Positions 32,565 to 63,932 of a stretch of DNA of 64,000 nt are shown in pieces. The position numbers were made by a program, and so were the translations under genes. The stretch comes from Salipaludibacillus neizhouensis. Its GTDB lineage: Bacteria; Bacillota; Bacilli; Bacillales; Salisediminibacteriaceae. Every line of letters starts with the position of its first letter. Within the stretch, counting starts at the first letter, position 1. The notes under the pieces were generated by a model, which saw only the letters and a program-made list of their open reading frames with translations, did not search any database and was not told the origin of the DNA. Location of the stretch: the NCBI RefSeq assembly GCF_002886185.1, contig NZ_KZ614148.1, positions 102,620 to 166,619 on the forward strand, read 5' to 3'.

Positions 32565-32640
32565 GGGGCCATAGCTCAGCTGGGAGAGCGTTTGTCTGGC
32601 AGACAAGAGGTCAGGGGTTCGAGCCCCCTTGGCTCCACCA
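32565..32640 (+). tRNA. tRNA-Ala(GGC), likely integration target
   Basis: The 76-base cloverleaf is intact with encoded CCA; the anticodon loop CTGGCAG gives GGC. It has its own promoter and terminator (hairpin AACGACT/AGTCGTT, 32654-32698). The 3' part with the same flanking sequence recurs at 43.7, 47.8 and 63.8 kb. Confidence 0.96.
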
Positions 32641-33033
32641 TACATATGTTATCAACGACTTTATTTCTCGTCTAAACGAGGAGTAGAGTCGTTTTTTTCG
32701 TGTTTATATTTTTTACTCATACGAAGACAGCATATTACTAACTTTTTTGAGTTGAATGTTAACAAAGTTTATAGTAATGAAGGAATTTTATCAATTCTAG
32801 TTCCATGTAATTTATAAAAGAGCAAAGGAAGAGGCAACAGACAATCTTGAACAATCACAAGGAAAATAATTAAGATTGGAATGGTCTTCTATTCAGGAGA
32901 TCATGATAATTTTGGCGGAGAATAAAGATTATAAATTGCCAAATGTTAGTGTAATGGTTAGTTTCAGACAATAGGTTTTTCCCCTTTACATAAATATAAA
33001 AATGACACTTTATTTCTCATGAACGGTATAGTA
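32641..33033 (+). repeat. Long direct repeat after tRNA-Ala, copy 1
   Basis: About 390 bases including the tRNA terminator recur, with roughly 60 bases missing, at 47892-48230. Shared stretches include GCAACAGACAATCTT, AAATGTTAGTGTAATGG and AAATGACACTTTATTTCTCAT. Broken reading frames in both copies suggest the remains of a gene; the right copy keeps a tail with DHDTFGGEY and ends in DSFGQ. I do not recognise it. Confidence 0.75.
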
Positions 33034-33199
33034 TCTGCTTGTTGTAGATTAACTTGTATTTTTTTTATAATAATTAAGTGTGAGAATAATAATTCCTCAG
33101 AATAAAATAGATTACTACTTGGATGCTAATAAAGAATATATCATAGAGAAGAAATGTAAATAAAAATCGAACATTCAACACCATTCAAACAATAAGGGG

Positions 33200-33419
33200 C
33201 ACTTTAAAAGTAGCCGAAATATATACGGTCAGAGAAAGATCAAGAAAGAAGCTTGAAAAACTTGGTTGGACGGTTTCCCGACGTAGAATTGGCCGTATAA
33301 TGACAGAACAGGGGCTTGTTTCAAAGTATACCGTTGCCCAATATAAGCCTAGCCAAACGACTTGTAATGAATCAGAAACTCAAAGTGATACAGTTATAAG
33401 GAAATATAACCCTGCTTAA
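33200..33419 (+). pseudogene. IS3-family transposase fragment
   Basis: Two frames joined by one frameshift give RNIYGQRKIKKE then KLEKLGWTVSRRRIGRIM followed by TEQGLVSKYTVAQYKP, the start of an IS3/IS150-type OrfB. The rest (DDE domain) is missing, and the end overlaps the stop of the following response-regulator gene. Confidence 0.85.
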
Positions 33420-34047
33420 ACGAAACAGAAACAGCCTCAGATCTTGAATCAACATTCAATTTATTATAGATGATCGTTAAATGTGCCTTAACCGTACGTT
33501 CAGCAATTCCCATATCAAATGCAATTTCTTTATTTCGGTAGCCTTTCGATACAGCTAGTATGATAAATAATTCTTTTTCCGTTAAAATTGACTGCTTATA
33601 CTTATCATTATCATCCTTTTTCTCACTTTTTTCTTTTATATTTAAAATTTTCATCAGGATTTCTGGCTTAAGCAGAGTATCTCCTCTTAGTGCAGATTCG
33701 ATTGTACGAAATAAATCATCTCTACTCGTATCTTTTAATAAATAACCTTTTGCACCTAATTGGATGCCTTTTAACATTAATTCATCTTCATTGTAGGTAG
33801 TAAGGATTATGACTGGAATGTTAATCTGTTCTTGATTAAGATGTTGAATTGTTTCTAGTCCACTCATAACAGGCATATTTAAGTCTAATAGAATAACATC
33901 TACAATATTTTTTTCGAGAAGCTCAATCGCTTCTTGACCATTTCCAGCTTCACCTATGACTTTAAAGGATTCATTTGTTTCTAAAATCAACTTTAGCCCT
34001 TCCCTTACAACTAAATGGTCATCAACAATCAGTATATTCTTTTTCAA
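33394..34047 (-). CDS. NarL/LuxR-family response regulator
   Basis: The 217-residue protein has a receiver domain (acidic pair DD after ILIV, phosphoacceptor in VILLDLNMPVMSG, Thr/Lys switch residues near ILTTYNED and KGYLLKD) and a LuxR-type DNA-binding domain (LTEKELFIILAVSKGYRNKEIA, then AERTVKAHLTIIYNKL). I place the start at TTG 34047 after AAGGTGAGAGG: the frame extends upstream to 34164 but codes there for the tail of a decayed kinase (IGTSVMVKIPL). Its original partner is therefore gone; the intact paralogous kinase at 39.4 kb may now phosphorylate it. Confidence 0.85.
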   Translation of the reverse strand: MKKNILIVDDHLVVREGLKLILETNESFKVIGEAGNGQEAIELLEKNIVDVILLDLNMPVMSGLETIQHLNQEQINIPVIILTTYNEDELMLKGIQLGAKGYLLKDTSRDDLFRTIESALRGDTLLKPEILMKILNIKEKSEKKDDNDKYKQSILTEKELFIILAVSKGYRNKEIAFDMGIAERTVKAHLTIIYNKLNVDSRSEAVSVSFKQGYISL

Positions 34048-34670
34048 CCTCTCACCTTCCATACCAAGTGGAATTTTCACCATTACACTAGTTCCTATAT
34101 TTAAGTCACTTGTAAGTCCCTTTTGCGTTCCAATTATATAATGTATCATGTAAATCTCGCACAAGTTGTTTTCTTTCGTTTACGATTTTGAGCTACTCTA
34201 TTTTTTGATTAGCTGCTTCTAACTTTTTAATATAATACTGCATGTTAGCCCATGCATTCGCTTGTAACATAAAGGATTGAATAAAAGGCTGAAATCTCAA
34301 TAATGAAAAACAGAATCGGGATGTTGAAACAACAAAGGTGTACCGTCAATATTAAAGTATAATAGCTAAAAGAACCTTAAAAGAGTTTTCAAAAAAATGA
34401 ATATAAGATTGGTAATAATCCTATAAGAATAATCGGTGAGCCATGAAGCATGATAAATGCAGAAATAAAAATGATCGTACATTGTAGAAAAAAATAAAAG
34501 GATGAATACTTAAGTTTAAATTGGTACATGAATTTATATAATATTGTGTGTAAGATCATTAATACCGTAAATATATTTGCTTGAGCATTTAGAACTTCTT
34601 CTAAAAATTGCAATACTATAGTGCCTACATAAACTAAGATTACCATAATATCATTCTATTCTTATAAGTA
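34048..34670 (-). pseudogene. Decayed sensor histidine kinase (paralogue of the kinase at 39.4 kb)
   Basis: Pieces of a kinase can be followed in order: a membrane region (34389-34646: QFLEEVLNAQ, FYFFLQCTIIFISAFIM), then in shifted frames PILFFI, SILYVTS and NMQYYIKKLEAANQKIE, then ERKQLVRDLHDT, the phosphoacceptor-His box. Directly after it only the last dozen codons of a kinase tail remain. The dimerisation remainder and the whole ATP-binding domain are deleted. Each piece aligns with the intact kinase at 39399-40625. Confidence 0.85.
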
Positions 34671-34840
34671 GGATGATTGTTAACCTTGTCATTGTAATCA
34701 ATAGATATCTTTCTTTTAAAGATATCTATTCACCTGTTACTTAAACGAATACAAATAAATAGAAAAACATGATTTATTTGCCTGTTCCTTTTGGAGTGTA
34801 GGATTTACTTTTTTCTTAAATAAAACTATCTGATAGTATA

Positions 34841-34874
34841 AAAAAAGATGACACTGTATATACAGAAATCATCT
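34841..34874 (-). terminator. Terminator downstream of the SDR gene
   Basis: On the minus strand GATGA...TCATC encloses the palindrome CTGTATATACAG and is followed by seven Ts. Confidence 0.8.
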
Positions 34875-34995
34875 CAGAAAAGTCACCGTTTAGATTACCT
34901 TTTTTATAAGAGTTCACTTTAATCCAGAATTTTACCTTTTTCGATTGATTCTTTATGTTCATCCTGTAAATGATTATTTAGTGTGTAAGTATTGA

Positions 34996-35754
34996 TTAAT
35001 AAGCTGTCCAACCACCGTCAACTGTAACTGTTGTAGCATTAACAAAACTAGAGTCATCAGAAGCTAAGAATAAAGCTACCTTTGCAATTTCCTCTGGTTG
35101 TCCTAAACGTGGGTTAGTCGCCATCCCCGGTCTAGATCTTTCCATACCAAATTGACTAACATTCGTTAATGTAGCAGCTATATTTGTTTCCACACTTCCT
35201 GGTGCAATTGCATTACATCGGACTCCACTTTTCGCATACATAAATCCAGTATTCTTTGTGAAACCAAGAACCGCATGTTTTGAGGCGGTATATGCTGCAC
35301 CAGCACGTCCTCCCTGAAGTCCGCCATTTGATGCAATATTAACAATAACACCTTGTTCCTTCTTTAAAAAGATAGGTAATACCTTTCTAGTTGTGCGCAT
35401 GACACCTGTAGTATTAATAGCAAATACTCTTTCCCACATTTCATCCTCAATTTCGCCAGCAGGAATAAAATTATCCATAATACCAGCATTATTAACTAAA
35501 ATGTCAACTGTATTGAATGTTTCAATACAGTTGTCTATAAGATTTTGAACATCCTTTTCATTTGCAACGTTAGCAAAAACTGCTACCGCTTCTCCACCAT
35601 TTGATTTAATTTCTTCCACCGTAGCATTTGCTGAATCTTCATTAATATCTGAAACTACTACTTTAGCACCGTGTTGGGCATAAACTATCGCAATCGCTTT
35701 TCCCATTCCTGAGCCTGCTCCTGTTACAATCGCTATTTTGTCTTTAAGTTTCAT
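34996..35754 (-). CDS. SDR-family dehydrogenase/reductase
   Basis: The 252-residue classical short-chain dehydrogenase has the cofactor motif TGAGSGMGKA (about residues 11-20), NNAG (about 86), catalytic Ser in VNIASNGG and the YTASK motif, plus the usual C-terminal SSFVNATTVTVDGGW. Asp after VVVSD suggests NAD preference. Such enzymes oxidise alcohols, including hydroxysteroids, or reduce ketones. Its neighbours are a CYP106-type P450 and its electron carriers, so oxidation of the hydroxylated product is a reasonable guess. It has its own upstream region behind the P450 terminator. Confidence 0.88.
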   Translation of the reverse strand: MKLKDKIAIVTGAGSGMGKAIAIVYAQHGAKVVVSDINEDSANATVEEIKSNGGEAVAVFANVANEKDVQNLIDNCIETFNTVDILVNNAGIMDNFIPAGEIEDEMWERVFAINTTGVMRTTRKVLPIFLKKEQGVIVNIASNGGLQGGRAGAAYTASKHAVLGFTKNTGFMYAKSGVRCNAIAPGSVETNIAATLTNVSQFGMERSRPGMATNPRLGQPEEIAKVALFLASDDSSFVNATTVTVDGGWTAY

Positions 35755-35929
35755 TTACGACACCCCGTTGATTAGATTTTTGGTGTTTTTCTAAAATGTG
35801 AATCTTGTATATGAATATTCTATCAAGAATGGCTAATTTATATATCGTACTTTCGGGCAATATACTTATGCCCAATGAGGCAAATCAACTGTTTTAAGCG
35901 TGCGGAATAATAGTTATTTTATTAATTAA

Positions 35930-35966
35930 GAAAAAAAATAACCCGAATATGATCCCTATATTCGGG
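35930..35966 (-). terminator. Terminator of the CYP106-type gene
   Basis: On the minus strand CCCGAATAT pairs with ATATTCGGG, followed by a long T-rich tract. Confidence 0.88.
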
Positions 35967-36011
35967 CAGAATAAATCATTATGCTTTAAATTATTTTTCA
36001 CAATAAATCTA

Positions 36012-37244
36012 TTATTGGTACACGTTTAAAGGTAAATGAACTAAAGACTGACCTGGAGCAGACTCAGTTAGATTCTCTTCTAAGTTAAAGGATTGAACAG
36101 GTTCTATTTGTGAAAAATTTTGTAAAAATGTTTTTAAGGCAATATTCAATTCTAACCTCGCAAGCGGCGCTCCTAGACAAAAATGTGGGCCATTACCAAA
36201 AGTTAAATGTTTTTTATTATTTGGTCGATGTATATTTAATTCAAATGGATTTTCGAACATTTCTTCATCCATATTTGCTGCACTCATCCACGCAATCACT
36301 ACATCACCTTTTTTCAGTTCCACACCTAAAATATTATTGTCCTGTTTTACGAAGCGTTCTCTTTTAGATATATTGAATCGATAACGAAGCATTTCTTCCA
36401 CAGCATTTGGAACGAGTTCCAGGTCGTTTCTTAATTGCTCGTATAAGGTTGTATCATCATACAATAGAGAATAAAACATGCTTGAAATCATATGACCAGT
36501 TGTTTCAATCCCAGCTCCTAGTAAAAGCATAGTTGTTCGAACAATCTCATCATCAGTAAATCTTTCACCTTCTAACTCAACTTTTATCAAATCCGAAATA
36601 ATATCATCAGAAGGATTTGAGTGTTTTTGAATAACAAGAGGATACAGGTATTCAAAATATTCTCGAGCAGCGTTCTGTTTTTTCTCATCAATTTCTTGTT
36701 CTTTTCCTTTTGTATAAGGTTGAAAAAGAACGTCAACCCATCTTTTATACCTAAGACTATCAGTTGAAGGAACTCCAATCAAGTCAGCCATTACCATGGT
36801 TGGATAGAGTCCTGAGAATTGCTGAACAATATCAACAGTGCTGTTTGCCTCCATGTCATGCACCAGTTTATTGGCAATTTCCTGGATTCGAGGCTCCCAG
36901 TTTTTTATGCTACGAGGAGTAAATGCTGCCGACAATAGGGAACGAGATTTTTGATGTTTGGGTGGATCGCTCCCAGCAACATTTACTTTTTCTGGGATCT
37001 GTCCTTCTTTATTATTCGCGCCTACAGCAACTGTTGATCTATTTCCTACACTTGAAAAGAATTCATGTTTACTTAAGACCTGTTTGACATCTTTATATTT
37101 AAAAACATTCCATGTATCTGTTTCTTTATTGTAGTATATTGGTTCATTTACTAGCATTTTCTTATACCAATCCATTGGACAAAACTCTTCGGATTTAGAT
37201 TGAAATTTTGTGATTTCTTGCATATCTATTATTTCTTTATTCAT
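36012..37244 (-). CDS. Cytochrome P450, CYP106 family
   Basis: The 410-residue P450 resembles CYP106A1/A2 of Bacillus (now Priestia) megaterium along its length, from EITKFQSKSEEF to NLEENLTESAPGQSL. Key elements: I-helix LLGAGIETTGHM, ExxR as EEMLRYR (about 283), heme-binding FGNGPHFCLGAPLARLE with the Cys ligand near residue 355. CYP106A2 hydroxylates steroids and di-/triterpenes, which suggests but does not prove the substrate class. ATG 37244 follows CTAGGAGG. It lies 65 bases after a ferredoxin gene, its probable electron donor. Confidence 0.93.
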   Translation of the reverse strand: MNKEIIDMQEITKFQSKSEEFCPMDWYKKMLVNEPIYYNKETDTWNVFKYKDVKQVLSKHEFFSSVGNRSTVAVGANNKEGQIPEKVNVAGSDPPKHQKSRSLLSAAFTPRSIKNWEPRIQEIANKLVHDMEANSTVDIVQQFSGLYPTMVMADLIGVPSTDSLRYKRWVDVLFQPYTKGKEQEIDEKKQNAAREYFEYLYPLVIQKHSNPSDDIISDLIKVELEGERFTDDEIVRTTMLLLGAGIETTGHMISSMFYSLLYDDTTLYEQLRNDLELVPNAVEEMLRYRFNISKRERFVKQDNNILGVELKKGDVVIAWMSAANMDEEMFENPFELNIHRPNNKKHLTFGNGPHFCLGAPLARLELNIALKTFLQNFSQIEPVQSFNLEENLTESAPGQSLVHLPLNVYQ

Positions 37245-37309
37245 TATGTCAGCCTCCTAGAATATTTGCACCCTTTTACTTCTTTATACTGTAAGGTATT
37301 TATTTATAA

Positions 37310-37701
<392 letters not shown>

Positions 37702-37711
37702 TCAAAATGTC

Positions 37712-38863
37712 CTACCTATATAAAGGTGTCAATGTTTTGATGTGAAAATCTACTTGTATTTTCAATAATGCTGCTACTCCACACGCGACGCATGTTCTTG
37801 ATTCACCACATACATTGGTCACCCATTTTCCACTGTAAAAAATATTTTTTCTTACACGGGATTTGTCCTTCTTTTCCATTAAGCTTGTGCTGTGCAATGG
37901 TTGGACTTTTGCTGATGGTTCAATATAAACCTTTGCGTTACTTACCGCTGTCGCAGCTTCTCCAAAACCTGTTGCAATGAGATTTATTTTTCCATCATAC
38001 GTACAAATATCACATGCTGCGTAGATTCCTTCAATATTTGTTTCCTGCTTCGAGTTCACAACAATCAAGTTTCCCTCGATATTAAGATCCCATCCTTTGA
38101 TAGGTCCTAGTGACGAAACAAATCCATAATTGACGAGCACATCGTTTGCCTCAATCTCTTTTTCGGTATCTCCTTTTGCTTCTTTAAGGATGACTATTTC
38201 TAAAGCTCTCTGTCCTTCTAAACTAACCGGTACATAAGGAGTAAGAATCTCCACCTTTGATATTTCAAGAAGAGCAACACTATGCTCGTGTGCACGAAAT
38301 TTATCACGTCGATGAACGAGTGTAACTTTTTCAGCAATCGGCTCTAGCATTAAGGAACAATCAACCGCTGAATCTCCACCTCCAAAAACAACGACTTTTC
38401 TATTGGAGAATTTACCTAAATCATTAATAAAATAATGAACGTTCGTATCATCCAGATTTTGTGGTATCTAAATAGGTAATTTCCTTGACTGAAACGCACC
38501 GTTCCCTGCTGTAATAATTATTGATTTTGAAAAATGCATTCCCGTTTCAGTGTGAATGGTAAATACTCCATTAACCTTTTCAATCTGCTGAACTGATTGC
38601 CCAAAGCATAGTTCCGTTTTTTCTTTAAATAGGTTCATTTGTTCCTGTAAATTGTCTATGAGTTCTTGAGCTCGTACTTTTGGAAATCCTGCAATATCGT
38701 AAATGTATTTTTCTGGATATAATGCTGAAAGCTGCCCGCCAAGCTGTGGAAGATTTTCAATGATCTTTACAGATGCTTGCCTCATCCCTGCATAAAAAGC
38801 TGCAAACATCCCCACTGGTCCGCCTCCAATAATAGTAATATCAACTACTTCATTATTCTGCAT
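37712..38863 (-). pseudogene. Ferredoxin-NADP reductase (YumC type) with an in-frame TAG
   Basis: One frame of 384 codons encodes a thioredoxin-reductase-like ferredoxin-NADP(+) reductase: FAD motif [22 protein letters not shown]-like block, CFGQSVQQ, second Rossmann [33 protein letters not shown] and the C-terminal FAD block [16 protein letters not shown] single TAG at 38468-38470 cuts it after [12 protein letters not shown], and readthrough restores the conserved sequence at once. The last 55 residues after STSLMEKK do not look like YumC, so the 3' end may also be rearranged. The two halves would not work alone. It lies upstream of the ferredoxin and P450 genes. Confidence 0.85.
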
Positions 38864-39055
38864 CTTAAACCTCCTCTAATTTCAGTAGAATCTAATAAAC
38901 CCTGTACTTTCCCTAAAGAGAAATAGAAAAACTTACCTCAATACAAGCTCTTTTCTTTTAATAAGGTTACTTCAATGTTAAGCATTTAGTTTTTTCCTGC
39001 TTGTTCGTAGTTATCGGATCAACACGATGAGATACTTTTAAACTCCCCCTTTTAC

Positions 39056-39086
39056 CAAAAGTGCTAACTCATTTAAAGCACTTTTG
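39056..39086. terminator. Hairpin between kinase and reductase genes
   Basis: CAAAAGTGCT pairs with AGCACTTTTG. Confidence 0.6.
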
Positions 39087-39125
39087 TTATTAATCCACAT
39101 TATATAGCACTAAACAATATAAAAA

Positions 39126-39158
39126 ATCGTACAATTGGGTATGTACCAACTGTACGAT
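39126..39158. promoter_or_regulatory. Inverted repeat of possible operator type
   Basis: ATCGTACA and TGTACGAT are perfectly complementary across 17 bases, and a smaller dyad (GGGTA/TACC) lies inside. It sits upstream of the reductase gene in a cluster with NarL-type regulation. The role is a guess. Confidence 0.4.
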
Positions 39159-39352
39159 CGGGTATTAACTATTTATGAAAAAGAATCACTCTCATACTAC
39201 CTATTTTATTGAAACTCATACCTTTCTCACTATTTTCACCTGCTAATCCACCTTAGCTAACCATAATCTCTAGATATATTTTCTTTCACTCTCTAATAAA
39301 GTAAGTTCGTTTGTACTATTAGATTAGGTAAAGAAATTTAAATAAATCATAC

Positions 39353-39383
39353 AAAAGCCCATGAACCTTAAGCACGTTTGGGC
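39353..39383 (-). terminator. Terminator of the intact histidine kinase
   Basis: On the minus strand GCCCA pairs with TGGGC around a long loop, followed by TTTTG. Confidence 0.5.
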
Positions 39384-39398
39384 AAATCAAAACTTTTA

Positions 39399-40625
39399 TT
39401 ATTTTTCATCTTTTTTCTTTGATCCAGTAAGAGGAATTTTTACAAATACTCTTGTTCCTTTTCCTTTTTCACTTTTAATATCAATTTCACCATTTAATAT
39501 TCGAACTCGTTCATTCAGACCTATCAAACCGTAATGTCCAACCTGCTTACCTATTTTGCTTGTATTGAGGCCCACACCGTTGTCTTCGATCTTAATAATT
39601 ATTGACTCCGCTTTTTTACAACAAATTGAAATGCTCACATTAGTTGCCTGTGCATGTTTAGCTATATTCATTAGACACTCACCTATAACGTATATGCAAT
39701 GTTGTTTAATGAGACTTGATAATGGTGGCAATGACTCAAAAGATCTATTCACCTCAATAGATATTGCTTCAGTAAATTTTAAAATTTCCTTTTCTACATC
39801 ATGAACAAAGTTCAATTCAGTAACAGAATCGGATCTTAAATTATCTATTGCTTCCCTTGCATCCTGAAGCGTTTCTCTTGCTTGACTCATAGATTCTTGG
39901 ACAATTTCTTTTGCCCGATCAGTATTTTCGTTTTGAAGATGGATATCAATAGCTTCTAATCTCATAATAAGTCCAGCAAGGCCCTGTGCTAATGTATCAT
40001 GCAAATCTCTGGCGATACGCTTTCTCTCACTTACAATTGTTAGATCCTCAATTTTTTGATTTGCCATTTGTAATTCATATAAATAATATTGCATCCGGCG
40101 CCAAGCATTTGCTTGTCGCACATAAAGAATTGAATAAAACACAGCGATAGCCATAATAAAAAATAAAATCGGAATAAAAAATGGCAGCTCTTGAATTCCA
40201 TAATTTACACTAATTGCGTAAGAATAAGGTAAATATAACAGCACCACAGCAAAAATTACTTTGAGAGAGTGATTGAATATATGGATACTTTGAGCAATTA
40301 ATATTGGTAATAAACCAAGTAACACTGCAGGAGCCCCGTGTGGCATAATGAATGCTGAAACAAATATGATAGTACATTGTAGGAAAAAGTAAAACCAAGC
40401 ATAATTGTTTTTAAAGCTACCTGAAAAGCTATGTAGCGTTAAATGGAGGATCATTAACATTGTGAAAAACACAGTTTGAACGTAAATGACTTCTTCTAAA
40501 AATTGCAAAAAGATAGCAGCAATAAATACTAAAACAACCCAAAATAAAATACGATATCTATAAATTGGAAGGTTGTCAAAAATATTATCTTCTATAAGAG
40601 CATTTTCATCTAACAATTTACCCAC
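39399..40625 (-). CDS. Sensor histidine kinase (LiaS/DesK-like, HisKA_3)
   Basis: The 408-residue kinase has about five to six N-terminal membrane helices (residues 25-165), a short coiled linker (YYLYELQMANQKIEDLTIVSERKR), the HisKA_3 box IARDLHDTLAQGLAGLIMRLEAI with the phosphoacceptor His, and an ATP-binding domain with N-box ECLMNIAKHAQA and G1/G2 boxes IEDNGVGLN and GHYGLIGLNERV. Such kinases partner with NarL-type regulators. No regulator gene adjoins it; the nearest is at 33.4 kb next to the decayed paralogous kinase. The signal is unknown. Confidence 0.9.
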   Translation of the reverse strand: MGKLLDENALIEDNIFDNLPIYRYRILFWVVLVFIAAIFLQFLEEVIYVQTVFFTMLMILHLTLHSFSGSFKNNYAWFYFFLQCTIIFVSAFIMPHGAPAVLLGLLPILIAQSIHIFNHSLKVIFAVVLLYLPYSYAISVNYGIQELPFFIPILFFIMAIAVFYSILYVRQANAWRRMQYYLYELQMANQKIEDLTIVSERKRIARDLHDTLAQGLAGLIMRLEAIDIHLQNENTDRAKEIVQESMSQARETLQDAREAIDNLRSDSVTELNFVHDVEKEILKFTEAISIEVNRSFESLPPLSSLIKQHCIYVIGECLMNIAKHAQATNVSISICCKKAESIIIKIEDNGVGLNTSKIGKQVGHYGLIGLNERVRILNGEIDIKSEKGKGTRVFVKIPLTGSKKKDEK

Positions 40626-40720
40626 TCCAAATTCTCGAATTTTTAACTAGAAACACACTAATTAATCATTATATATGAATATTTTATTTCCTTGTCAATA
40701 ATTAGTTGATCAAAAACAAA

Positions 40721-40819
40721 AGGCATTCGATTGTGAATGCCTCTCAGTCTGTAGACAAACTCTTTGAATACGAGTTTGTCTACGTGTGACCTGTGTAAAT
40801 ATATTTTTTACACAGGTTT
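40721..40819 (-). terminator. Cluster of three hairpins downstream of the MFS gene
   Basis: Three perfect stems follow one another: ACCTGTGTAAA/TTTACACAGGT (40789-40819), GTAGACAAACTC/GAGTTTGTCTAC (40751-40783) and AGGCATTC/GAATGCCT (40721-40742); the last is followed by T-rich sequence on the minus strand. Confidence 0.7.
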
Positions 40820-40935
40820 CAATAGTTCTTATCATTGGTTAAAGTTTCTTTTATAAACTGTTCGTACCGATGAGTAAAAGTTTTATAGAGCTGCAAACTA
40901 GATTGTTTTTTACGAATCTGTTATTGATTACCTTT

Positions 40936-42414: not shown

Positions 42415-42440
42415 ACCAAATTCTCCTTTCTGTATGTAGA

Positions 42441-42541: not shown

Positions 42542-42637
42542 TTACATAACAAGGAACTTATGTCGTTTACCAATAAAATATTAGACAGATAATTAATAAT
42601 TGTAGCTTTCAATCGGATAATGAAAGGGGTATTTAAG

Positions 42638-45541: not shown

Positions 45542-45551
45542 TCAAAAAATT

Positions 45552-53537: not shown

Positions 53538-53575
53538 TGCTTCACCCCAGTAATTTTCGTGTGATCTAAAGTGTA

Positions 53576-54754: not shown

Positions 54755-54835
54755 AAAGTCTTCATCCTCCTCTTATGATATGTGTAGAATATTTTAGTTA
54801 AAAATGTGGTTGGATTGTTATTTAAATGAAACAAT

Positions 54836-56614
54836 CTAATTATTCGCAACCTTTGGATTTAGAGGAATAATGATCCTAACTAAAAAAAATTGTCCCTGAA
54901 TCGTGTCCAGTTCTAAAGCGGCGCCTGGTCCATAATTTAGCACTAATCTATCATGAATATTTTTCAGACCGATATGCTCGTGTGCATGTGTTTCTTCATA
55001 AGAAGTTGTATAGATGTTTTCTCTTAGTGATAGTAGCTCCGAGTGTGTCATGCTAGATCCGTCATTTTCTACAACAAAGTGTAAAAATTCCCCTTGTATA
55101 TCACCATAAATGTTTAAATGGGCATCATAGAAACCTTCTTCATAGCAGTGTTTAAAGAAATTTTCCACGAGCGGTTGAAGAATCATACTTGGAATCTCCA
55201 TATTAAGTATCTTTTTGTTTATGTTAATAGAATAGTTTATATTGTTCTGAAAACGCTCCATTTGAAGGGCTAGGTATGTCTTTATATAATCGATTTCATT
55301 CCTAACTAACACCCATTGATCCGCTTGAATCGAGTATCTCATCATTTTGGATAAGGACGTTAACAATTGGTAGACTTTTGGAGAATTAGATCTTAAGGCA
55401 ACAGCACCTATGGATTGTAATGCGTTAAATAAAAAGTGCGGATTAACTTGAGACTTTAGTGCTCTGAATTGATTTTTTCTGTTATCAATTTCTAGCTTAT
55501 ATTCGCGCTCAATATGAAGGTTGATCCGGTTCATCATTTCATTCATGTGTTTTTCCAGATGTCCGATTTCATCTTCTCTGTTGCAATCAAAGGGAATCTC
55601 CATATCTCCTCCTTCTATTGTTCGCACTTTCTTGCTGAGGAGTTTAATTGGACGAGTAATACTGAATGCAATAATACCTATCATTAATAATCCTAGAATT
55701 CCAACTAAAATTCCAACAAGAATGTTTGTATAAGCAGTCTGCCTGACATCATTGAGTAATACCTTACTAGGGGTTATCTTCACTAATTTCCATTGGTTTA
55801 ATGGTTCAGATAATAATTTAGAAAAGGTAATGTCTTCCCCAATATCAACGTCTGTCGTATCGATTTGCTGTTTTAAATCACGAGTAGCAGATGTACCAAT
55901 AAGGGAAGGATCACTTGCGTATATCACCCTATCATCCGAATCAATAAGCAATACAGATTCTTTATCCTGCTGAACAAGGTTGTTACATATGCGTGCAAAT
56001 GTATCCAGATCGATATCTAAAGTAACTATTCCAAGGAATTCGTTTGAAAGCACGTCTACTATTTTATGGTGAATCGTCAAAACCACTGTGTTGTCCGACT
56101 GGGGAACAATTGCAGCATTATTATAATTCTCAATCTGATGGGGTGGCTCAATTATGTACTTTAGATTAGAGTTATACAGTTTATTAATCAAATCTCCCTT
56201 CATTAGATCTGGTTGAGATTTACGAGCACTAACCATAGCATTATAAACAGTGATCGATTCTTTATTGTTATCAAGATAAAAGCGAACCTGGCGAATATCG
56301 TTTCGCATGAGATAAAAACTTTCCATGCTTTTTTCTATCGCAGTTGGGTTGAAATAAATCGACTCTTCAAAACCATTATTAAAAATCCGGAATAAATCAG
56401 GATTTCGATATATCAGGTACGGAAGATTGATCATATCACTAAAGTATTTCTCCAGTTCTTCCGAAAATTTCTCCATTTGATTGTGACTAATTTCGAGTTC
56501 GTGCTGTTCTACATCATTTTTTGTATGTCCATAAATGAATAGAATAGATAAAAAATAAGGTAGGATGATAAAAGTTAGAAGCATAAGAAATAAGCGACTT
56601 TGAATGCTTTTCAC
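54836..56614 (-). CDS. YesM-type sensor histidine kinase
   Basis: The 592-residue kinase has a first membrane helix (residues 6-28), a large extracellular dCache-like sensor, a second helix (about 285-310), a HAMP domain, the His_kinase box FRALKSQVNPHFLFNALQSIG with the phosphoacceptor His, and an ATP-binding domain (PLVENFFKHCYEEG, then ENDGSSM and GLKNIHDRL). Such kinases sense sugars, sometimes through a binding protein. It is the first gene of the kinase-regulator-binding protein operon. A possible cre site lies about 260 bases upstream. Confidence 0.92.
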   Translation of the reverse strand: MKSIQSRLFLMLLTFIILPYFLSILFIYGHTKNDVEQHELEISHNQMEKFSEELEKYFSDMINLPYLIYRNPDLFRIFNNGFEESIYFNPTAIEKSMESFYLMRNDIRQVRFYLDNNKESITVYNAMVSARKSQPDLMKGDLINKLYNSNLKYIIEPPHQIENYNNAAIVPQSDNTVVLTIHHKIVDVLSNEFLGIVTLDIDLDTFARICNNLVQQDKESVLLIDSDDRVIYASDPSLIGTSATRDLKQQIDTTDVDIGEDITFSKLLSEPLNQWKLVKITPSKVLLNDVRQTAYTNILVGILVGILGLLMIGIIAFSITRPIKLLSKKVRTIEGGDMEIPFDCNREDEIGHLEKHMNEMMNRINLHIEREYKLEIDNRKNQFRALKSQVNPHFLFNALQSIGAVALRSNSPKVYQLLTSLSKMMRYSIQADQWVLVRNEIDYIKTYLALQMERFQNNINYSININKKILNMEIPSMILQPLVENFFKHCYEEGFYDAHLNIYGDIQGEFLHFVVENDGSSMTHSELLSLRENIYTTSYEETHAHEHIGLKNIHDRLVLNYGPGAALELDTIQGQFFLVRIIIPLNPKVANN

Positions 56615-56872
56615 GTGAAGATGCTCCTTTCCTTCAAATAAATACAGATCAACATTTTTTTACTAAAAAGTAATAGAGGAACGGAGAACATTAAATGATC
56701 CACCATCTAGTGAAAGGAGATTGAAAAATTTCAATATAATAGTTGTGTTTTTTTTATCGTAATCATTCTATCATGCTTCTATTTAAATTTAATTCTTTTC
56801 GAACAAGTGCGTCAATATTGAATAGAGGAGGGAAGGTGAAGGGATATTTGAATGCCCATTATAACGTGGGTT

Positions 56873-56886
56873 GACAACGTTTACTA
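56873..56886 (-). promoter_or_regulatory. Possible CcpA (cre) site
   Basis: On the minus strand AGTAAACGTTGTCA matches the cre consensus except for the first base. It is upstream of the sugar-sensing operon. The match is by eye only. Confidence 0.35.
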
Positions 56887-56938
56887 TGTTAACTAAAACT
56901 TCTAAAAATGAATCATAGGTACTAGCGAATAATTGATT

Positions 56939-57128
56939 GTCACAAAAAAAGTCAAACTAGGTCAATAGTTGTGACAGTCTTTATTAGTATAAATTAACCC
57001 CCATAAAGGTTAGCATTAGTCAGTTGAAGTGTCTTTATGCCCCGTTCTTCTAAGGGAGGCGGGTTTTATTAATTGAATCAAAGGAAGGGTTTATCCCTCT
57101 TTGCTCTCATTAAACAGAGGGCTTTTTT
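56939..57128. terminator. Hairpins between the sensor operon and bioW
   Basis: TGTCACAA/TTGTGACA (56939-56977) is followed by CCCTCT/AGAGGG with a T-run (57095-57128), an apparent terminator facing bioW with no visible gene before it. It insulates the biotin operon or belongs to a lost gene. Confidence 0.55.
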
Positions 57129-57236
57129 GTGTTTTGGAGAAACTGGGTGGCCTAGTTACAACTATTGATAAATTAAACATAATTAGAATTCTTAGTTGAA
57201 TAACTATGTTGTATCTTTCTTCTCCTTTTGTGGGGA

Positions 57237-57265
57237 TTGACAAAATAAATTAAAAATCATATGGT
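57237..57265 (+). promoter_or_regulatory. Promoter of the bio operon
   Basis: A perfect TTGACA and TATGGT are 17 bases apart; the start point would fall in the adjacent operator. Confidence 0.82.
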
Positions 57266-57268
57266 TAT

Positions 57269-57301
57269 ATCGTCAACCATTAAATAAATTGAGTTGACGA
57301 T
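57269..57301 (+). promoter_or_regulatory. BirA-like operator of bioW with altered half-sites
   Basis: ATCGTCAAC-N15-GTTGACGAT is a perfect inverted repeat with the same geometry as the bioY operator, but each arm differs from ATTGTTAAC at two mirrored positions. It overlaps the transcription start. Confidence 0.8.
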
Positions 57302-57347
57302 CGGAGTGGAGGTTGAGTTAAGGATTACAAAGGGGAGGATCCATGGT

Positions 57348-58127
57348 ATGCAAGAAGAAGAATATTATAGTGTTAGAATGAGAGCTGCTAAGAATACAGT
57401 ACTTAAAAAGGGTGGAAAACATATATCTGGTGGGGAAGTACTTTCAACCTATAGCAACATAAAACAATCAGTGAATGCCTTGTTGGAAAAAGCTTTAACT
57501 CACTCAAGAGGAAAACCGGACTTTATGCAAATTCAGTTTGAATCTATAAATGAATCTATAAAGCTAGTTAAGCCATTAAGGGTCGAAACAAATGAAGTAG
57601 AAACAGTAGAAAATGGAAAGACTTTGGCACGGGCTATGTTAGAAAAATCAGGTGTGCCGAAAAGAATTATTGATAAAGCATATAAACAAATACCTGAATA
57701 TTCGAGTATTAGAGGAGCTATATTATTTGATATTCATTCGGGTGAACGGATTGATAATAATTCAGAAAAAGGGGTCCGAGTTTCAAGAATAGATTGGTTG
57801 AATGCTAATTTTGAGAAGTGGACTGACGAGAACAATCAGCCGAAAAGTTCCAGAGTAAAGGAGGCGCTTGCTATTGCTACAAAGGTATGCGACCATCCTT
57901 CCACGATCGCAGAATTATGTTGGTCAGATGACCCTGATTATGTTACCGGATATGTTGCCAATAAAAAGCTCGGTTATCAACGTATTACAAGGTTAAAAGA
58001 ATATGGAGATGAGCAAGGGTGTCGCATCTTCTTTGTTGATGGCGTAAGAGATTTACCTACATACATCAATTTTTTAGAAAAAAAGCCAATTTTTATCAAA
58101 TGGGAGGAAGATGACATTGACACATGA
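57348..58127 (+). CDS. bioW: 6-carboxyhexanoate-CoA ligase (pimeloyl-CoA synthetase) BioW
   Basis: The 259-residue enzyme activates pimelate with ATP and CoA to pimeloyl-CoA, the first step of this biotin pathway. It is close to B. subtilis BioW throughout: [58 protein letters not shown] and GYQRI. I chose ATG 57348 because AAAGGGGAGG precedes it; the frame is open to 57294, inside the operator. First gene of bioWAFDBI. Confidence 0.95.
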
Positions 58128-59463
58128 ATTAATTGAAAAAAGCAAAAAACACCTTTGGTTACCATTTACTCAGATGAAAGATTATGATGAGGACCCCTTA
58201 ATTATTGAAAGTGGTGATGGGATTAAAGTAAAAGACATTCATGGTAAGGAATACTTTGATGGATTTTCTTCTGTTTGGCTTAATGTACACGGGCATCGAA
58301 AAAAAGAGTTAGACAATGCAATTAAAAATCAGCTAGAAAAGATTGCTCATTCAACATTACTAGGCATGACGAATGTTCCCGCAACTGAGCTTGCTGAAAA
58401 ATTAATAGAATTAAGTCCTGAAAAATTGACACGCGTTTTTTATTCTGATAGTGGAGCAGAAGCCATGGAAATTGCTTTAAAAATGGCTTTTCAATATTGG
58501 AAGAACATAGGAAGACCAGAGAAACAAAAATTTATATCGATGAAAAATGGTTATCACGGCGATACGGTTGGTGCAGTAAGTATTGGTTCCATTGATCTTT
58601 TTCACCAAGTATATGGTGCTTTAATGTTTGAGAGTTTCAACGCGCCAATTCCGAACGTGTATCGCTCGGAATTGGACGATCCTGCTCAATGTCGTGATGA
58701 ATGTTTACAAACCCTCGAACAGCTACTCGTTAAAAGCCACGAAGAAATAGCTGCACTTTCGATTGAATCGATGGTCCAAGGGGCTGGGGGCATAACCGTG
58801 ATGCCAGAAGGTTTTTTAGCTGGTGTCCGTGAACTTTGTTCTAAATATGACATCTTAATGATCGTTGATGAAGTTGCCACAGGTTTTGGTCGGACAGGAA
58901 AGATGTTTGCCTGTGACCATGAGGGAGTTCAACCTGATTTAATGGCAGCTGGAAAGGGAATTACAGGTGGATATTTACCGATTGCAGTGACATTTACAAC
59001 AGAGGAGATTTATGAGGCATTTTATGATGACTACCAAACATTAAAGACTTTTTTCCATGGCCATTCTTACACGGGGAATCAGCTTGGATGTGCAGTAGCA
59101 ATTGAAAATATTCGTTTGTTTGAATCTGAAAAAATCACTGAGCAAGTAGCTCAAAAATCAGAGGCCCTTCATGCAATTCTACATGAACTAGATACCCTCC
59201 CACATGTTGGAGATATTAGGCAGCTTGGTTTTATGTGTGGAATAGAGCTCGTTCAATCAAAGGAAACAAAAGAAGCCTATCCTAATGAAAAGCGAGTAGG
59301 GTATCAGGTCTCTCTAAAAATGAGAGAGTTGGGGATGTTAACGAGACCAATGGGAGATGTGATTGTATTTATGCCTCCTCTTGTCAGTACAAAAGAAGAA
59401 CTGGAAGCCATGGTAGCAATCATGAAAGAAGCTATCAATGAGGTAACAAGTAGTGAGCTTTGA
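58111..59463 (+). CDS. bioA: Adenosylmethionine/lysine-8-amino-7-oxononanoate aminotransferase BioA
   Basis: The 450-residue PLP enzyme converts 8-amino-7-oxononanoate (KAPA) to 7,8-diaminononanoate. Signatures: [50 protein letters not shown] and the PLP lysine in [12 protein letters not shown] (about 281). In B. subtilis the orthologue (BioK) uses lysine rather than SAM as donor; the same may hold here. It overlaps bioW by 17 bases. ATG 58111 is only three bases from GGGAGGAAG's core; TTG 58117 is an equally likely start. Confidence 0.95.
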
Positions 59464-60625
59464 TGGATGGTTAAGTGCCCGATTAAACGAGACGAAAAAA
59501 GCCGGTTTGTATCGGCACTTACGAACCATGAACTCTGCGCCTCATCCTGAAATGTATATTGATGGGAAGAAACAAATGATCTTTTCTTCCAATAATTATT
59601 TAGGTCTGGCGAATGAGAAACAATTGATCTATGCAGCAGAAACAATTTTGCATCAGTTTGGAGTAGGGAGTAGTGGCTCCAGACTGACTACAGGTAATAC
59701 GGAATGGCATGAGAAACTCGAAGAACGTATCGCAAGCTTTAAGCAAACAGAAGCAGCTCTATTATTTTCAAGTGGATATTTAGCAAATATCGCCGTACTT
59801 ACTTCCTTACCTGAAAAAGGAGACGTACTTTTTAGCGATCAATTAAACCACGCTAGTATTATCGATGGATGCCAGCTTTCAAAAGCAGATACAGTTGTGT
59901 ACAACCATATTGATATGACTGATCTAGAGGAGAAATTGAAAGCCACAAAATCTTATGAGCGACGTTTTATTGTAACAGATGGAGTATTTAGTATGGATGG
60001 TACGATTACACCTTTAGATAAGATAATGAGTCTCGCAAAGTACTATCGAGCCTACGTTATTGTTGATGATGCCCATGCAACCGGAGTATTAGGGGAACAT
60101 GGGAGAGGTACAAGTGAACACTTCAATGTCTTACCCGATGTCGTTGTTGGTACCCTCAGTAAAGCAGTGGGAACAGAAGGTGGTTTTGTCTCTGGAACGA
60201 GGGTTCTAATTGACTTCCTGCTGAATCATGCAAGAACATTTATTTTTCAAACCAGTATCCCACCATCGAGCTGCGCTGCTTCGTATGTCGCATTGGGGCT
60301 TATTTTAGACAGTGAGCAAAAACGTAAACATCTCGTTTTAAACGTGAACCAAATAAAAACGGGCTTAATAGAAATGGGCTATAAGGTCAGGGGGAATGAT
60401 ACACCGATAATTCCAGTAATAATTGGAGATTCTCAAAATGCAGTTTTATTTGCTGAAAAACTCCAAGAAAAAAGCATCTATGCTCCAGCTATTCGTCCAC
60501 CAACTGTACCAAAAGGGGAAAGTCGTATTCGCTTAACAGTAACCTCTGAACATAATTCAAAAGAGATAGATTATTTGCTAGAGTCATTTAAATTAATAGG
60601 AAAGGAGTTGAACATGATTAGATGA
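59453..60625 (+). CDS. bioF: 8-amino-7-oxononanoate synthase BioF
   Basis: The 390-residue PLP enzyme joins pimeloyl-CoA and alanine to KAPA. Features: [63 protein letters not shown] and the PLP lysine in [15 protein letters not shown] 59453 lies inside the end of bioA (11-base overlap) after GAGG, matching the B. subtilis N-terminus. Confidence 0.95.
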
Positions 60626-61329
60626 AGGGTGTTTTCGTCACAGGAACGGATACAAACGTTGGCAAAACAATTATAGCTAGTGGAATAGCGGCAGTATTAA
60701 GAGAAAAAGAGGTTGATGTAGGAGTATTTAAGCCATTTTTAAGTGGTATTTCCCGTGACCATCCAGAAAGTGATACAAGTTTACTGAAGGAGATGTCGCA
60801 AACACCCCTCTCTACTGAAGATATTACTCCTTTTGAATTTAAGGAGCCACTTGCTCCTTTAGTTGCGGGAAAACTGAAGGGGAAGCTAGTTAACATGACA
60901 GAGGTCGTGCGCCATTGGGAAACCATTCGAGTAAAACATGACTTCTTTATAGTAGAAGGTGCTGGGGGAATTGCAGTGCCGCTGGGTGAAGTTTTCTTGG
61001 TTAGTGATTTAATAAAAGCACTACAAATTCCGATCATAATTGTTGCCAGGCCTAACCTTGGTACGATAAATCATACATTTTTAACTGTGAAATACGCTCA
61101 AAGTATAGGTCTTAGTATTGCAGGAATTGTTATAAATGGTGTAGGTGAGAAAGCAGACCTATCTGAAAGAACAAGTCCTGAAATAATTGAAAAATTATGT
61201 GGTGTACCTATTTTAGGTATAACACCTAAGCTTACCGACGTAACAAATGAAAGTATTCAGCAAATGGTAAAGGAACACATAGATGTATCATTATTTTTAA
61301 ATAAAATGGGGGTAGAGAAAGGTGAATAA
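60622..61329 (+). CDS. bioD: Dethiobiotin synthetase BioD
   Basis: The 235-residue ATPase closes the ureido ring with CO2. It has the P-loop GTDTNVGKT (residues 7-15), the Lys in KPFLSG, and the EGAGGIAVPL motif. It overlaps bioF by the ATGA arrangement, suggesting translational coupling. Confidence 0.95.
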   Translation: MKGVFVTGTDTNVGKTIIASGIAAVLREKEVDVGVFKPFLSGISRDHPESDTSLLKEMSQTPLSTEDITPFEFKEPLAPLVAGKLKGKLVNMTEVVRHWETIRVKHDFFIVEGAGGIAVPLGEVFLVSDLIKALQIPIIIVARPNLGTINHTFLTVKYAQSIGLSIAGIVINGVGEKADLSERTSPEIIEKLCGVPILGITPKLTDVTNESIQQMVKEHIDVSLFLNKMGVEKGE

Positions 61330-62329
61330 ATGGATGAAAATTGCGCAAGGGGTGTTAGAGGAACAGGAATTAACGAATAATGAGGCGCTATCAATACTTG
61401 AGTGCCCGGACGAAGATATTCTATTACTTATACACGCTTCTTTTCAAATTAGAAAGCGTTTTTTTGGAAAGAAAGTAAAACTTAATATGATTATGAATGC
61501 CAAGTCTGGACTATGTCCTGAAAATTGTGGGTATTGTTCTCAATCTTCTATTGCTGAAGCACCGATTGATTCTTATAGAATGGTCAACAAGGATACACTT
61601 GTAGAAGGAGCGAAGCGTGCACATGAATTAAATATAGGAACATACTGTATCGTCGCTAGTGGTAGAGGGCCTTCGAATAAAGAAGTCAATCAAGTTGTTG
61701 AAGCAGTTGAAGAAATCAAGGACACATATGGATTGAAAATTTGTGCCTGTCTTGGTCTTTTAAAACCGGAGCAAGCAGAAAGACTAAAAGAAGCAGGAGT
61801 AGATCGCTATAACCATAATATCAATACTTCAAAGAGTAACCATTCAAACATTACAACATCACACACGTATAATGATAGAGTCAATACAATAGATGTTGCA
61901 AAAGAATCTGGAATGTCGCCATGTTCAGGAGTCATTGTGGGGATGAAAGAAACGAAGCAAGATGTTATCGATATGGCACGTAGTTTAAAAGCCTTAGATG
62001 CAGATTCGATCCCGGTCAATTTTTTACATGCGATTGATGGTACACCGCTAGAAGGGGTTAACGAGCTCACCCCAGTTTATTGCTTGAAAGTCTTGGCATT
62101 GTTTCGTTTTATCAATCCTACAAAGGAAATTCGAATTGCAGGGGGGCGAGAGGTTAACCTTCGTTCCTTACAGCCGTTAGGATTATACGCAGCCAATTCC
62201 ATCTTTGTGGGAGACTATTTAACAACCGAGGGACAAGAAGATACAGAAGATCATCAAATGTTACAAGATTTAGGGTTTGAAGTAGAATCGGTACAGGAAA
62301 TGAAGGAAAGTCTAGCGGCAGAAAAATAA
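61322..62329 (+). CDS. bioB: Biotin synthase BioB
   Basis: The 335-residue radical-SAM enzyme inserts sulfur into dethiobiotin. The [4Fe-4S] motif is SGLCPENCGYCSQS (about residues 61-74), and the second-cluster residues appear in TYCIVASGRGP, KICACLGLL and EIRIAGGREVNLR. GTG 61322 overlaps bioD by 8 bases and gives the N-terminus MNKWM, as in B. subtilis. Confidence 0.96.
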   Translation: MNKWMKIAQGVLEEQELTNNEALSILECPDEDILLLIHASFQIRKRFFGKKVKLNMIMNAKSGLCPENCGYCSQSSIAEAPIDSYRMVNKDTLVEGAKRAHELNIGTYCIVASGRGPSNKEVNQVVEAVEEIKDTYGLKICACLGLLKPEQAERLKEAGVDRYNHNINTSKSNHSNITTSHTYNDRVNTIDVAKESGMSPCSGVIVGMKETKQDVIDMARSLKALDADSIPVNFLHAIDGTPLEGVNELTPVYCLKVLALFRFINPTKEIRIAGGREVNLRSLQPLGLYAANSIFVGDYLTTEGQEDTEDHQMLQDLGFEVESVQEMKESLAAEK

Positions 62330-62387
62330 AAGATAAACCGTTCAAAAAAAAGGATACGAACTATTTTAAAAGCGGTTCTAATAAAGT

Positions 62388-62500
62388 GGCTTGTTGATAA
62401 ATTAGTTATTTATGAGACCGATAGCATAGCGTAACGAGCCGATGGACTGAGGTCCAACAAGCCGTAGCGACATTACTTCTAGAGGTAATTGTATGAGGAG
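62388..62500 (+). promoter_or_regulatory. Structured leader between bioB and bioI
   Basis: GGCTTGTTG (62388-62396) pairs with CAACAAGCC (62455-62463), enclosing a GC-rich block with GGAC-TGAG-GTCC; a further near-palindrome (ATTACTTCTAGAGGTAAT) lies just before the bioI ribosome binding site. It may attenuate or process the operon mRNA. No known riboswitch is recognised. Confidence 0.5.
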
Positions 62501-62508
62501 GGAAATGA

Positions 62509-63759
62509 ATGACGAGACACACAAATTACACATTAGACGTTCCAAAAACAATACCATTTTCGCTGAATTCTTCTGAATTTTTAAAGAATCCTTACCCTTT
62601 ATATGATAAACTACGCTCTGCTAATCCAGTGTCTAAGATAACTCTATTAAAATATTCAGGTTGGTATATCACCGGATATGACGAGGCGATAGCTATTTTA
62701 AAAGATACAAGATTTAAAAACCGAATCCCGCTACCTCAGGCTTCAAAAAAATACAATGATCTAAAAAAAATACAGAATGATATGATGGTTTTTAAGAATC
62801 CTCCTGACCATAAGCGATTGCGTAAGCTCGTAGGTAACGTATTTAGCACGCAAGTTGTGGAACAGTACCGTCCATATATCGAAGAAACCGTTATTGAATT
62901 AATTGATCGACTGCAGGATAAAAAAAGTATCGATATCGTTTCAGATTTAGCGTTCCCTTTAACTAGCCTCGTCATAGCTAAAATAGTAGGAGTACCAGAA
63001 GAAGATAGGAATCAATTTAGAGAATGGACTGTGTCCTTAATACATACTATTGATATTAAGCGAGATAGAAATATCCTAGTAAATGGTAACGATACAGCCT
63101 TAAAAGTACTAGATTACTTCAAAGAACTCATTAAAAAGAGAAAACAAAACCCTAAAGATGATCTAATAAGTATGCTAATTAAAGAGGAGGAGCAGGGAGA
63201 AAAATTAACAGACGAAGAATTACTGGCGACCTGTATTTTACTTATTATCGCAGGACATGAAACAACGGTAAATCTTATTAGCAATTCGATGCTGTCCTTA
63301 TTGAATCATCCTGACCAACTAAAGAAGCTAAAGGAAACCCCACCTCTTATTAAAACAGCAATTGAAGAGTTTTTACGCTATGAAAGCCCCACACAGATGA
63401 CAGCACGTGTTGCATCGGAAGATATTGAAATCAATAATAAAACCATTAGAGAAGGGGAACAAGTTTACATATTTATAGGAGCTGTTAATCGCGACCCGAA
63501 AAAGTTCACAAATCCTAATCAACTCGATATATCAAGAAATCCTAATCCTCATCTTGCATTTGGATATGGTAGTCATTTTTGTTTAGGCTCAACCCTTGCT
63601 CGAGTAGAAGCTCAAATTGCTATTAATGTATTTCTACAACGAATGACAAACATACAACTAACTGTATCTACCCCGAAATGGAGGGTTCTAACTGGCTTTA
63701 GATCACTACAAGAATTGCGAATTACAGCCACCATGATGAATGAAATGGATGAAAACTAA
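62509..63759 (+). CDS. bioI: Cytochrome P450 BioI (CYP107H type)
   Basis: The 416-residue P450 cleaves fatty acyl chains carried on acyl carrier protein to give pimeloyl-ACP in B. subtilis. Motifs: I-helix LLIIAGHETTVNLI, ExxR as EFLRYE, and heme-binding FGYGSHFCLGSTLARVE with Cys about 358. GAGGAGG precedes ATG 62509. It is last in the bio operon, 179 bases after bioB across a structured leader. Gene order bioWAFDBI is that of B. subtilis, but ytbQ does not follow. Confidence 0.94.
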   Translation: MTRHTNYTLDVPKTIPFSLNSSEFLKNPYPLYDKLRSANPVSKITLLKYSGWYITGYDEAIAILKDTRFKNRIPLPQASKKYNDLKKIQNDMMVFKNPPDHKRLRKLVGNVFSTQVVEQYRPYIEETVIELIDRLQDKKSIDIVSDLAFPLTSLVIAKIVGVPEEDRNQFREWTVSLIHTIDIKRDRNILVNGNDTALKVLDYFKELIKKRKQNPKDDLISMLIKEEEQGEKLTDEELLATCILLIIAGHETTVNLISNSMLSLLNHPDQLKKLKETPPLIKTAIEEFLRYESPTQMTARVASEDIEINNKTIREGEQVYIFIGAVNRDPKKFTNPNQLDISRNPNPHLAFGYGSHFCLGSTLARVEAQIAINVFLQRMTNIQLTVSTPKWRVLTGFRSLQELRITATMMNEMDEN

Positions 63760-63824
63760 GAGTGGCAACTTTCCTTTAAATAGTGCTATCCTAAGTTTCG
63801 AAAATTTAATCTCTAAAGTATTTG

Positions 63825-63932
63825 GGGGCAGTGTAACTAACCATGACGTGAGAGCGCCACGCTGACCTCCACCATACATATGTTATCAACGACACTATTC
63901 TTCCTTTTTACGAGGGATTGTGTCGTTTTTTA
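63825..63932 (+). repeat. tRNA-Ala-derived copy 4 (truncated) with terminator
   Basis: It starts GGGGCAGTGTAACTAACCAT like copy 3, but jumps from CCACGCTG to ACCTCCACCA, losing about 32 bases including the T-arm. The related terminator AACGACA/TGTCGTT (63888-63927) remains and can end bioI transcription. Confidence 0.8.

Follow-up and report, generated by a model that had tools for sequence, protein, structure and literature searches.

The stretch analyzed here, hereafter the window, comprises 64,000 nucleotides of Salipaludibacillus neizhouensis (contig NZ_KZ614148.1, termed C3; the window is C3:102620-166619), whose genome amounts to 5.51 Mb on 11 contigs. At 32565 it carries a tRNA-Ala(GGC) gene; three altered copies farther along, at 43.7, 47.8 and 63.8 kb, retain the tRNA terminator behind a common foreign 5' part (type X). 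An earlier note, made from the letters of the window alone, had described this arrangement and proposed that islands had integrated at the 3' end of the tRNA. In line with the note, ARAGORN called the intact gene at 32565-32640, the sole tRNA-Ala(GGC) that it called in the window; the anticodon stem reads TTTGT/ACAAG and the loop, CTGGCAG, lies at 32596-32602. The features of the four sites are listed below in window coordinates, with C1 and C2 denoting other contigs of this genome, E1 the first element of the region, and R1 to R3 the flanks at the left ends of elements.

32499..32527, + strand: promoter-like site 5' of the intact tRNA, TTGATT-17-TATAAT (a consensus match only, 10/12)
32565..32640, + strand: site 1, intact tRNA-Ala(GGC), the proposed integration target (ARAGORN)
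32654..32693, + strand: terminator of the tRNA, class AACGACT/AGTCGTT (terminator pattern)
32694..33033, + strand: R1, left-end flank of E1, homologous to the flank after copy 3
43672..43753, + strand: site 2, X-type copy with foreign 5' part, stem TTTGT/ACAAG and complete 3' part
43708..44337, + strand: core and left-end flank R2, also at C1:39.4 and C2:8.0 kb (91-97%)
43767..43806, + strand: terminator of copy 2
47810..47891, + strand: site 3, X-type copy with stem CCACG/CGTGG
47905..47944, + strand: terminator of copy 3, of the same class as copy 1 (a separate scan recovers the inner stem)
63825..63877, + strand: site 4, X-type copy that has lost most of its 3' half
63888..63927, + strand: terminator of copy 4
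63928..64000, + strand: start of R3, left-end flank of the next element, which runs to C3:205.5 kb

The different 5' part that the note saw in all three altered copies was readily recovered: GGGGCAGTGTAACTAACCATG, with at most 3 mismatches allowed, matched the window three times (43672, 47810 and 63825), as compared to a mean of 0.00 in 100 shuffles. The copies were also said to keep the 3' half of the tRNA with its terminator, which holds for copies 2 and 3 but only in part for copy 4; there, a deletion has removed what lies between anticodon loop and acceptor stem (nearly all of it up to the last eight bases), leaving CTCCACCA and the terminator. The four terminators indeed form two classes (copies 1/3 and copies 2/4), and a self-comparison aligned 32582-33033 with 47833-48230 at 77% over 458 columns, and therefore copies 1 and 3 share their downstream sequence, as claimed. 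Copies 2 and 4, however, combine one terminator class with different downstream flanks (R2 and R3, respectively).

Comparisons drew on eight genomes of the genus, this one included, and on 35 genomes of the family. The idea that terminators alone define two element types was rejected: we read the terminator as the tRNA's own, and its class tracks the R flank. An element-borne terminator, which was first considered because three relatives (G001, G006 and G007) lack one, was rejected as well, as a similar terminator lies behind intact tRNA-Ala(GGC) in other genera. Using a simple pattern, the intact tRNA with a similar downstream terminator was found in 9 of 21 family genomes, our own counted, and the duplicated stretch is hence taken as the 3' part of the tRNA together with its own terminator.

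A genome search with copy 3 yielded 12 matches: besides the intact gene and two genes for tRNA-Ala(TGC), it recovered a degenerate copy and eight altered ones. Of these eight, five are of type X (C3:146.3, 150.4, 166.4 and 205.5 kb, and C1:39.4 kb), thus adding two to those of the window, and three are of a second type, Y (C1:29.2, C1:48.2 and C2:8.0 kb). At the Y end, an unrelated sequence common over about 270-310 bp is joined exactly at the loop CTGGCAG, whereas the X end comprises ~40 bp common to all five sites, extended by a further ~390 bp at sites 2 and 5 alone (site 5 being the copy at C3:205.5 kb). The five C3 sites all point the same way (+), the intact tRNA being followed by 3' fragments in its own orientation (site 4 keeps the tail alone), and the three C1 sites likewise share one orientation. 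The left flanks recur as well: R1 at sites 1 and 3 and, as a shorter stretch, at C1:29.2 kb; R2 at site 2, C1:39.4 kb and C2:8.0 kb; and R3 at sites 4 and 5, leading at site 5 into an intact integrase gene. Given these recurring R flanks and X ends, the blocks between the copies are units with common ends and different contents. Within the window, they are:

32596..43708, no strand assigned: E1, 11.1 kb, without integrase (no Phage_integrase match in the window)
43709..47846, no strand assigned: E2, 4.1 kb, with a group II intron, a putative lipoprotein and a DUF3231 fragment
47847..63861, no strand assigned: E3, 16.0 kb, with biotin genes above NCBIfam cut-offs

The note had divided the region into two related elements, A and B, corresponding to E1 and E3. 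Both do start with R1 and end with X, yet they are not alone: the 4.1-kb element lies between them, a 39-kb one follows, and others reside on C1 and C2. E1, E2 and E3 each possess att junctions at both ends and no integrase, as cis-mobilizable elements (CIMEs) do, the right junction of E3 (site 4) being damaged. An exact search for the X pattern returned nothing from genome-contig and viral-contig collections, which may omit records near the source genome, and with 3 mismatches allowed the pattern was found among the 35 family genomes only in its own. A 16-mer of Y occurred in 14 viral contigs, a pattern so short that chance matches are possible.

Several relics were noted outside these arrays. 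The degenerate copy lies at C1:3179.7 kb behind a proC-like gene (named by eye), and further relics are found at C1:66.1 kb and at C1:3040.0 kb, the latter adjoining a remnant of the C terminus of the site-5 integrase. The degenerate tails at C1:3179.7 and C1:3040.0 kb, 140 kb apart, are both preceded by a similar proC-like 3' end, possibly marking a secondary integration site behind proC.

As to the enzyme, the note's statement that no integrase remains is correct for the window, which holds none of the genome's 18 Phage_integrase matches, but not for the array, since one match (C3:205704-206249) lies beside site 5 and falls within an intact gene:

C3:205647-206771, - strand: tyrosine integrase, 374 aa, intact, right of site 5 and outside the window

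Arm-binding, SAM-like and catalytic domains are all present in the protein. In R3 of site 5, 115-126 bp to the right of the loop, there is a double TGTGCAC motif, which recurs 132-145 bp to the left of the loop at two of the three Y ends, the third being gapped there; site 4 retains one copy, and none was found within 420 bp in the X ends, R1 or R2. We read the double motif as putative arm-type sites of the site-5 integrase. Among the 34 other family genomes, the two best-scoring integrase relatives (G003 and G031) adjoin tRNA-Ala(GGC), as do the broken integrase pieces of G005, which have the highest identity. Relatives in named genomes numbered 14 loci, and no tRNA-Ala was seen near the seven of them that were scanned for tRNAs; viral contigs gave three loci at 24-31%.

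The junctions themselves are of two kinds. As a general rule, exchange takes place in the 7-bp anticodon loop, with the stem providing two half-sites (PMC8371274). All three Y junctions conform to this anticodon-loop (class A) pattern, whereas none of the five X junctions does; in the latter, the stretch identical to the tRNA already starts within the D arm, at GGGAGAGCG or at a variant that differs by one base.

The same target is occupied in other genomes. In the congener G003, tRNA-Ala(GGC) is adjoined by an integrase relative of 390 aa, and a displaced tRNA tail is found at a distance of 22 kb; in G031, of another genus, the tRNA has an integrase beside it and a tail repeat 17 kb away. Similarly, two tails joined at the loop occur in G018 with 12.8 kb between them, and in G019 a single tail is separated from tRNA-Ala(GGC) by 17 kb. 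In the congeners G001, G006 and G007, by contrast, the tRNA is undisturbed, lacks tail copies and shares its upstream genes with our genome; no integrase relative was found beside it at E<=1e-20, G006 having one elsewhere. The comparison that the note had proposed is thus borne out by half: relatives with an undisturbed tRNA-Ala(GGC) exist, but the join to the sequence beyond 64 kb was not found within the range searched. Of separate note, behind the tail of G003 (C4:352.2-352.5 kb) and behind the tRNA of G002 (C14:21.2 kb) we observed ~70-bp palindromic-looking units ending in GTGCACCATA, which resemble a further repeat type located at the 3' end of the tRNA.

Taken together, these results make it very likely that the locus is a tandem array of genomic islands at tRNA-Ala(GGC), entered by tyrosine-integrase recombination, and the members within the window are best read as integrase-less, CIME-like islands with metabolic cargo, such as the biotin operon of E3. 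Integration at the tRNA 3' end, as put forward in the note, is supported by the junction anatomy, the integrase beside copy 5 and the G003 and G031 loci. On entry, a tyrosine integrase would recombine the tRNA-derived core of a circular element with the tRNA or with an earlier junction, giving the tRNA a new 3' part and terminator, while the old 3' part would be displaced to the far end, behind the element's own right end (X or Y). The integrase behind site 5 could act on the integrase-less members; alternatively, these may be stuck, changing only by recombination between junctions. The order of insertion, the mobility of the members and the assignment of integrases to junctions are what we infer from this arrangement. 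The array would represent one way in which this bacterium gathered accessory genes, with metabolic blocks, the biotin operon included, stacked behind one tRNA; its genome measures 5.51 Mb, as compared to 4.2-4.6 Mb in seven congeners.

Several findings weigh against this interpretation. The downstream genes of G001, G006 and G007 had no strong match in the regions of our genome that were compared, and one of them, when searched across the whole genome, gave only 26% matches; accordingly, the right-hand host border was not found, nor was a joined empty site. Two of the seven congeners (G002 and G004) have neither an adjacent integrase relative nor a displaced tail, and C3 yielded no right end for the element that bears the integrase. 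The 39-kb block contains ~12 kb of N and repeated starts of open reading frames, which renders its length and order uncertain. Moreover, as X lacks the presumed arm motif, the site-5 integrase may not have made the X junctions. Finally, a gene near the C1 copies lies 2.1-2.3 Mb from tRNA-Ala in G001, G006 and G007, and hence either the family is partly located at another place or a chromosomal rearrangement has occurred. A single array spanning C3, C2 and C1 is thus unsupported, and a TerC-like gene on C2 provided no anchor, since the relatives have only remote matches to it.

Could the copies have spread without an integrase, by homologous recombination or segmental duplication, the blocks having come by other routes? 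Repeats of 100-700 bp are able to recombine, X adjoins unrelated left flanks at sites 3, 4 and C1:39.4 kb, and the inner 350 bp of R2 also occur, without a tRNA core match, at C2:159.5 kb and in G003 (C10:86.7 kb), perhaps as a dispersed repeat of its own. However, the 7-bp anticodon loop, where tyrosine integrases classically cross over, is the exact start of all three Y junctions, the orientation is uniform among the five C3 sites and among the three C1 sites, and an intact integrase adjoins site 5, all of which renders this route improbable. A misassembly, in which tRNA-tail repeats joined unrelated contigs during scaffolding, is less probable still: the assembly does consist of 11 contigs with short gaps and the N stretch in the block after the window, but the window itself contains no N, and left and right flanks recur in varied combinations with divergence (77-97% identity), unlike misjoins.

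The X copies might instead be functional, D-arm-less alanine tRNA-like RNAs with a use of their own. The four whose 3' part is complete can be folded so that the acceptor stem has 5 bp and the anticodon and T arms are paired; they encode CCA, their anticodon stem halves match, and they keep G3-U70, the identity pair of alanine tRNAs; ARAGORN even called the site-5 copy as tRNA-Ala(GGC). Nevertheless, a consensus scan of the + strand found no promoter-like site at copies 2 and 3, in contrast to the 10/12 match of the intact tRNA, and copies 2-4 gave no tRNA family match at the Rfam gathering score, the best clan match listed for them at a lax threshold being a tmRNA model, again below its gathering score. 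As copy 4 is also deleted and X appears in no other genome searched, we consider a function of this kind highly improbable. The tandem array of integrated islands accordingly remains our preferred explanation.

The cargo differs from island to island. E1 encodes a response regulator, an SDR, a cytochrome P450, a split FAD/NAD oxidoreductase, a histidine kinase, an MFS transporter and a TetR protein. The oxidoreductase (37712-38863) is broken into two reading frames and is probably a decayed cargo gene. E1 also has an internal repeat (34139-34683 versus 39990-40579, 63%); since the second stretch belongs to the histidine kinase gene, the first probably represents what is left of a kinase. In E2, the lipoprotein was named by eye and has no Pfam match, and the group II intron, without a long open reading frame, lies at 44417-45254, immediately 3' of the R2 flank. 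A plasmid search with 32565-48600 returned 14 records, all within query positions 11760-12694, i.e., the group II intron region; the Niallia plasmid relatives of this intron span ~2.7 kb, one being annotated with ltrA.

E3 holds a biotin operon (bioW, bioA, bioF, bioD and bioB, all above NCBIfam cut-offs), in addition to below-cut-off matches to fructan-hydrolase-like, carbohydrate-binding-protein-like, response-regulator-like and P450-like proteins. Its bioB (61322-62329) is intact, while the genome's only other bioB match at that level (85%, C1:945.9 kb) has an in-frame TGA. Among the seven congeners, close relatives of the island bioB occur in G001 and G007 only, which identifies the biotin cargo as accessory. 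The ~39-kb block after the window, ending at site 5 (C3:205.5 kb), has Pfam matches to proline racemase, aldehyde dehydrogenase, a DctP protein, GAPDH, PEPCK and a sodium:solute symporter. No relaxase or conjugation family was detected among 40 proteins scanned, a set short of all genes, part of that scan reaching only E 1e-20. A search against phages returned 3018 records with relatives, all below 60% identity and uninformative.

Two features of this locus are less ordinary: the X ends are joined in the D arm, left of the anticodon stem, and, unexpectedly, related species differ strongly in the anticodon stem that the target tRNA carries. In 21 of the 35 family genomes, those for which a tRNA-Ala(GGC) locus was available (14 being left out), the loop is invariably CTGGCAG (21/21), yet the stem (window 32591-32607) occurs as nine alleles, all paired, in a plain count over genomes. 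A further set comprised up to 10 genomes, and in 10 of these six alleles were counted for tRNA-Ala(GGC) and a single one for tRNA-Ala(TGC); 17 other tRNA types, those present in at least 3 genomes of the set (6-10 genomes each), had one stem allele (13 types) or two (four types).

Within the array, the stem halves match in all four testable X copies (TTTGT/ACAAG in two, CCACG/CGTGG in two), which with two alleles is weak on its own, chance giving ~1 in 6 to 1 in 16 depending on the counting method. On C3, the allele switches once going outward, from TTTGT at sites 1-2 to CCACG at sites 3-5 (left half only at site 4), as fits newer islands entering on the tRNA side; the CCACG allele equals the stem of the tRNA of G011, a member of another genus. 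As the X ends join in the D arm, an incoming X element would replace not only the half beyond the loop but all of the anticodon arm and the remainder of the tRNA. Exchange in the loop at a change of allele would yield a tRNA with a mismatched stem, whereas exchange to the left of the stem would not, and X entry would leave every junction with a matched palindromic core, usable for a further round of integration. The matched-stem pattern could also have arisen through later gene conversion among the copies.

It is conceivable, although we deem it rather unlikely, that a functioning tRNA has its anticodon stem rewritten time and again by islands, through D-arm X joins with reusable palindromic cores, or that a contest between host tRNA and integrase over the two core half-sites makes the stem hypervariable across the family while the loop stays fixed. 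Either process would fit the sequences, and relaxed constraint on tRNA-Ala(GGC) is an alternative. If true, integration would edit a functional part of the translation machinery, or hosts would alter the stem to escape integration. A search of the open-access literature, itself weak evidence of absence, found nothing on a variable anticodon stem in an integration target or linking islands to one.

Accretion of tandem islands at RNA genes is already known, and the array described here is a further case. Tycheposons are likewise islands bounded by tRNA fragments with metabolic cargo. In PMC5704250, which reviews the tandem accretion of integrative conjugative and mobilizable elements (ICE/IME) and of CIMEs, integrase-less, att-bearing blocks are stacked at one target next to an integrase-bearing neighbor, as in our array; unlike those systems, ours has two kinds of right end, and a scan of 40 of its proteins, short of all genes, brought up neither conjugation nor relaxase families. 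According to PMC4383910, Islander-type islands are also marked by an intact tRNA with a displaced 3' fragment, and their anticodon-centered site class A fits the Y ends, whereas the D-arm join of X falls outside the anticodon, T-loop and junction classes given there. That pipeline, moreover, requires an integrase for each tandem member, and its table lists 4 under tandems of 3 or more, from a total of 3919 islands. The islands at ssrA in Dehalococcoides (PMC3146451) likewise comprise several tandem islands behind one RNA gene, with 3'-end repeats each preceded by a motif not matching the target, many members without an integration module, and niche-specific metabolic cargo; they differ in employing a serine recombinase at the T loop of tmRNA, where our array involves a tyrosine integrase and tRNA-Ala(GGC).

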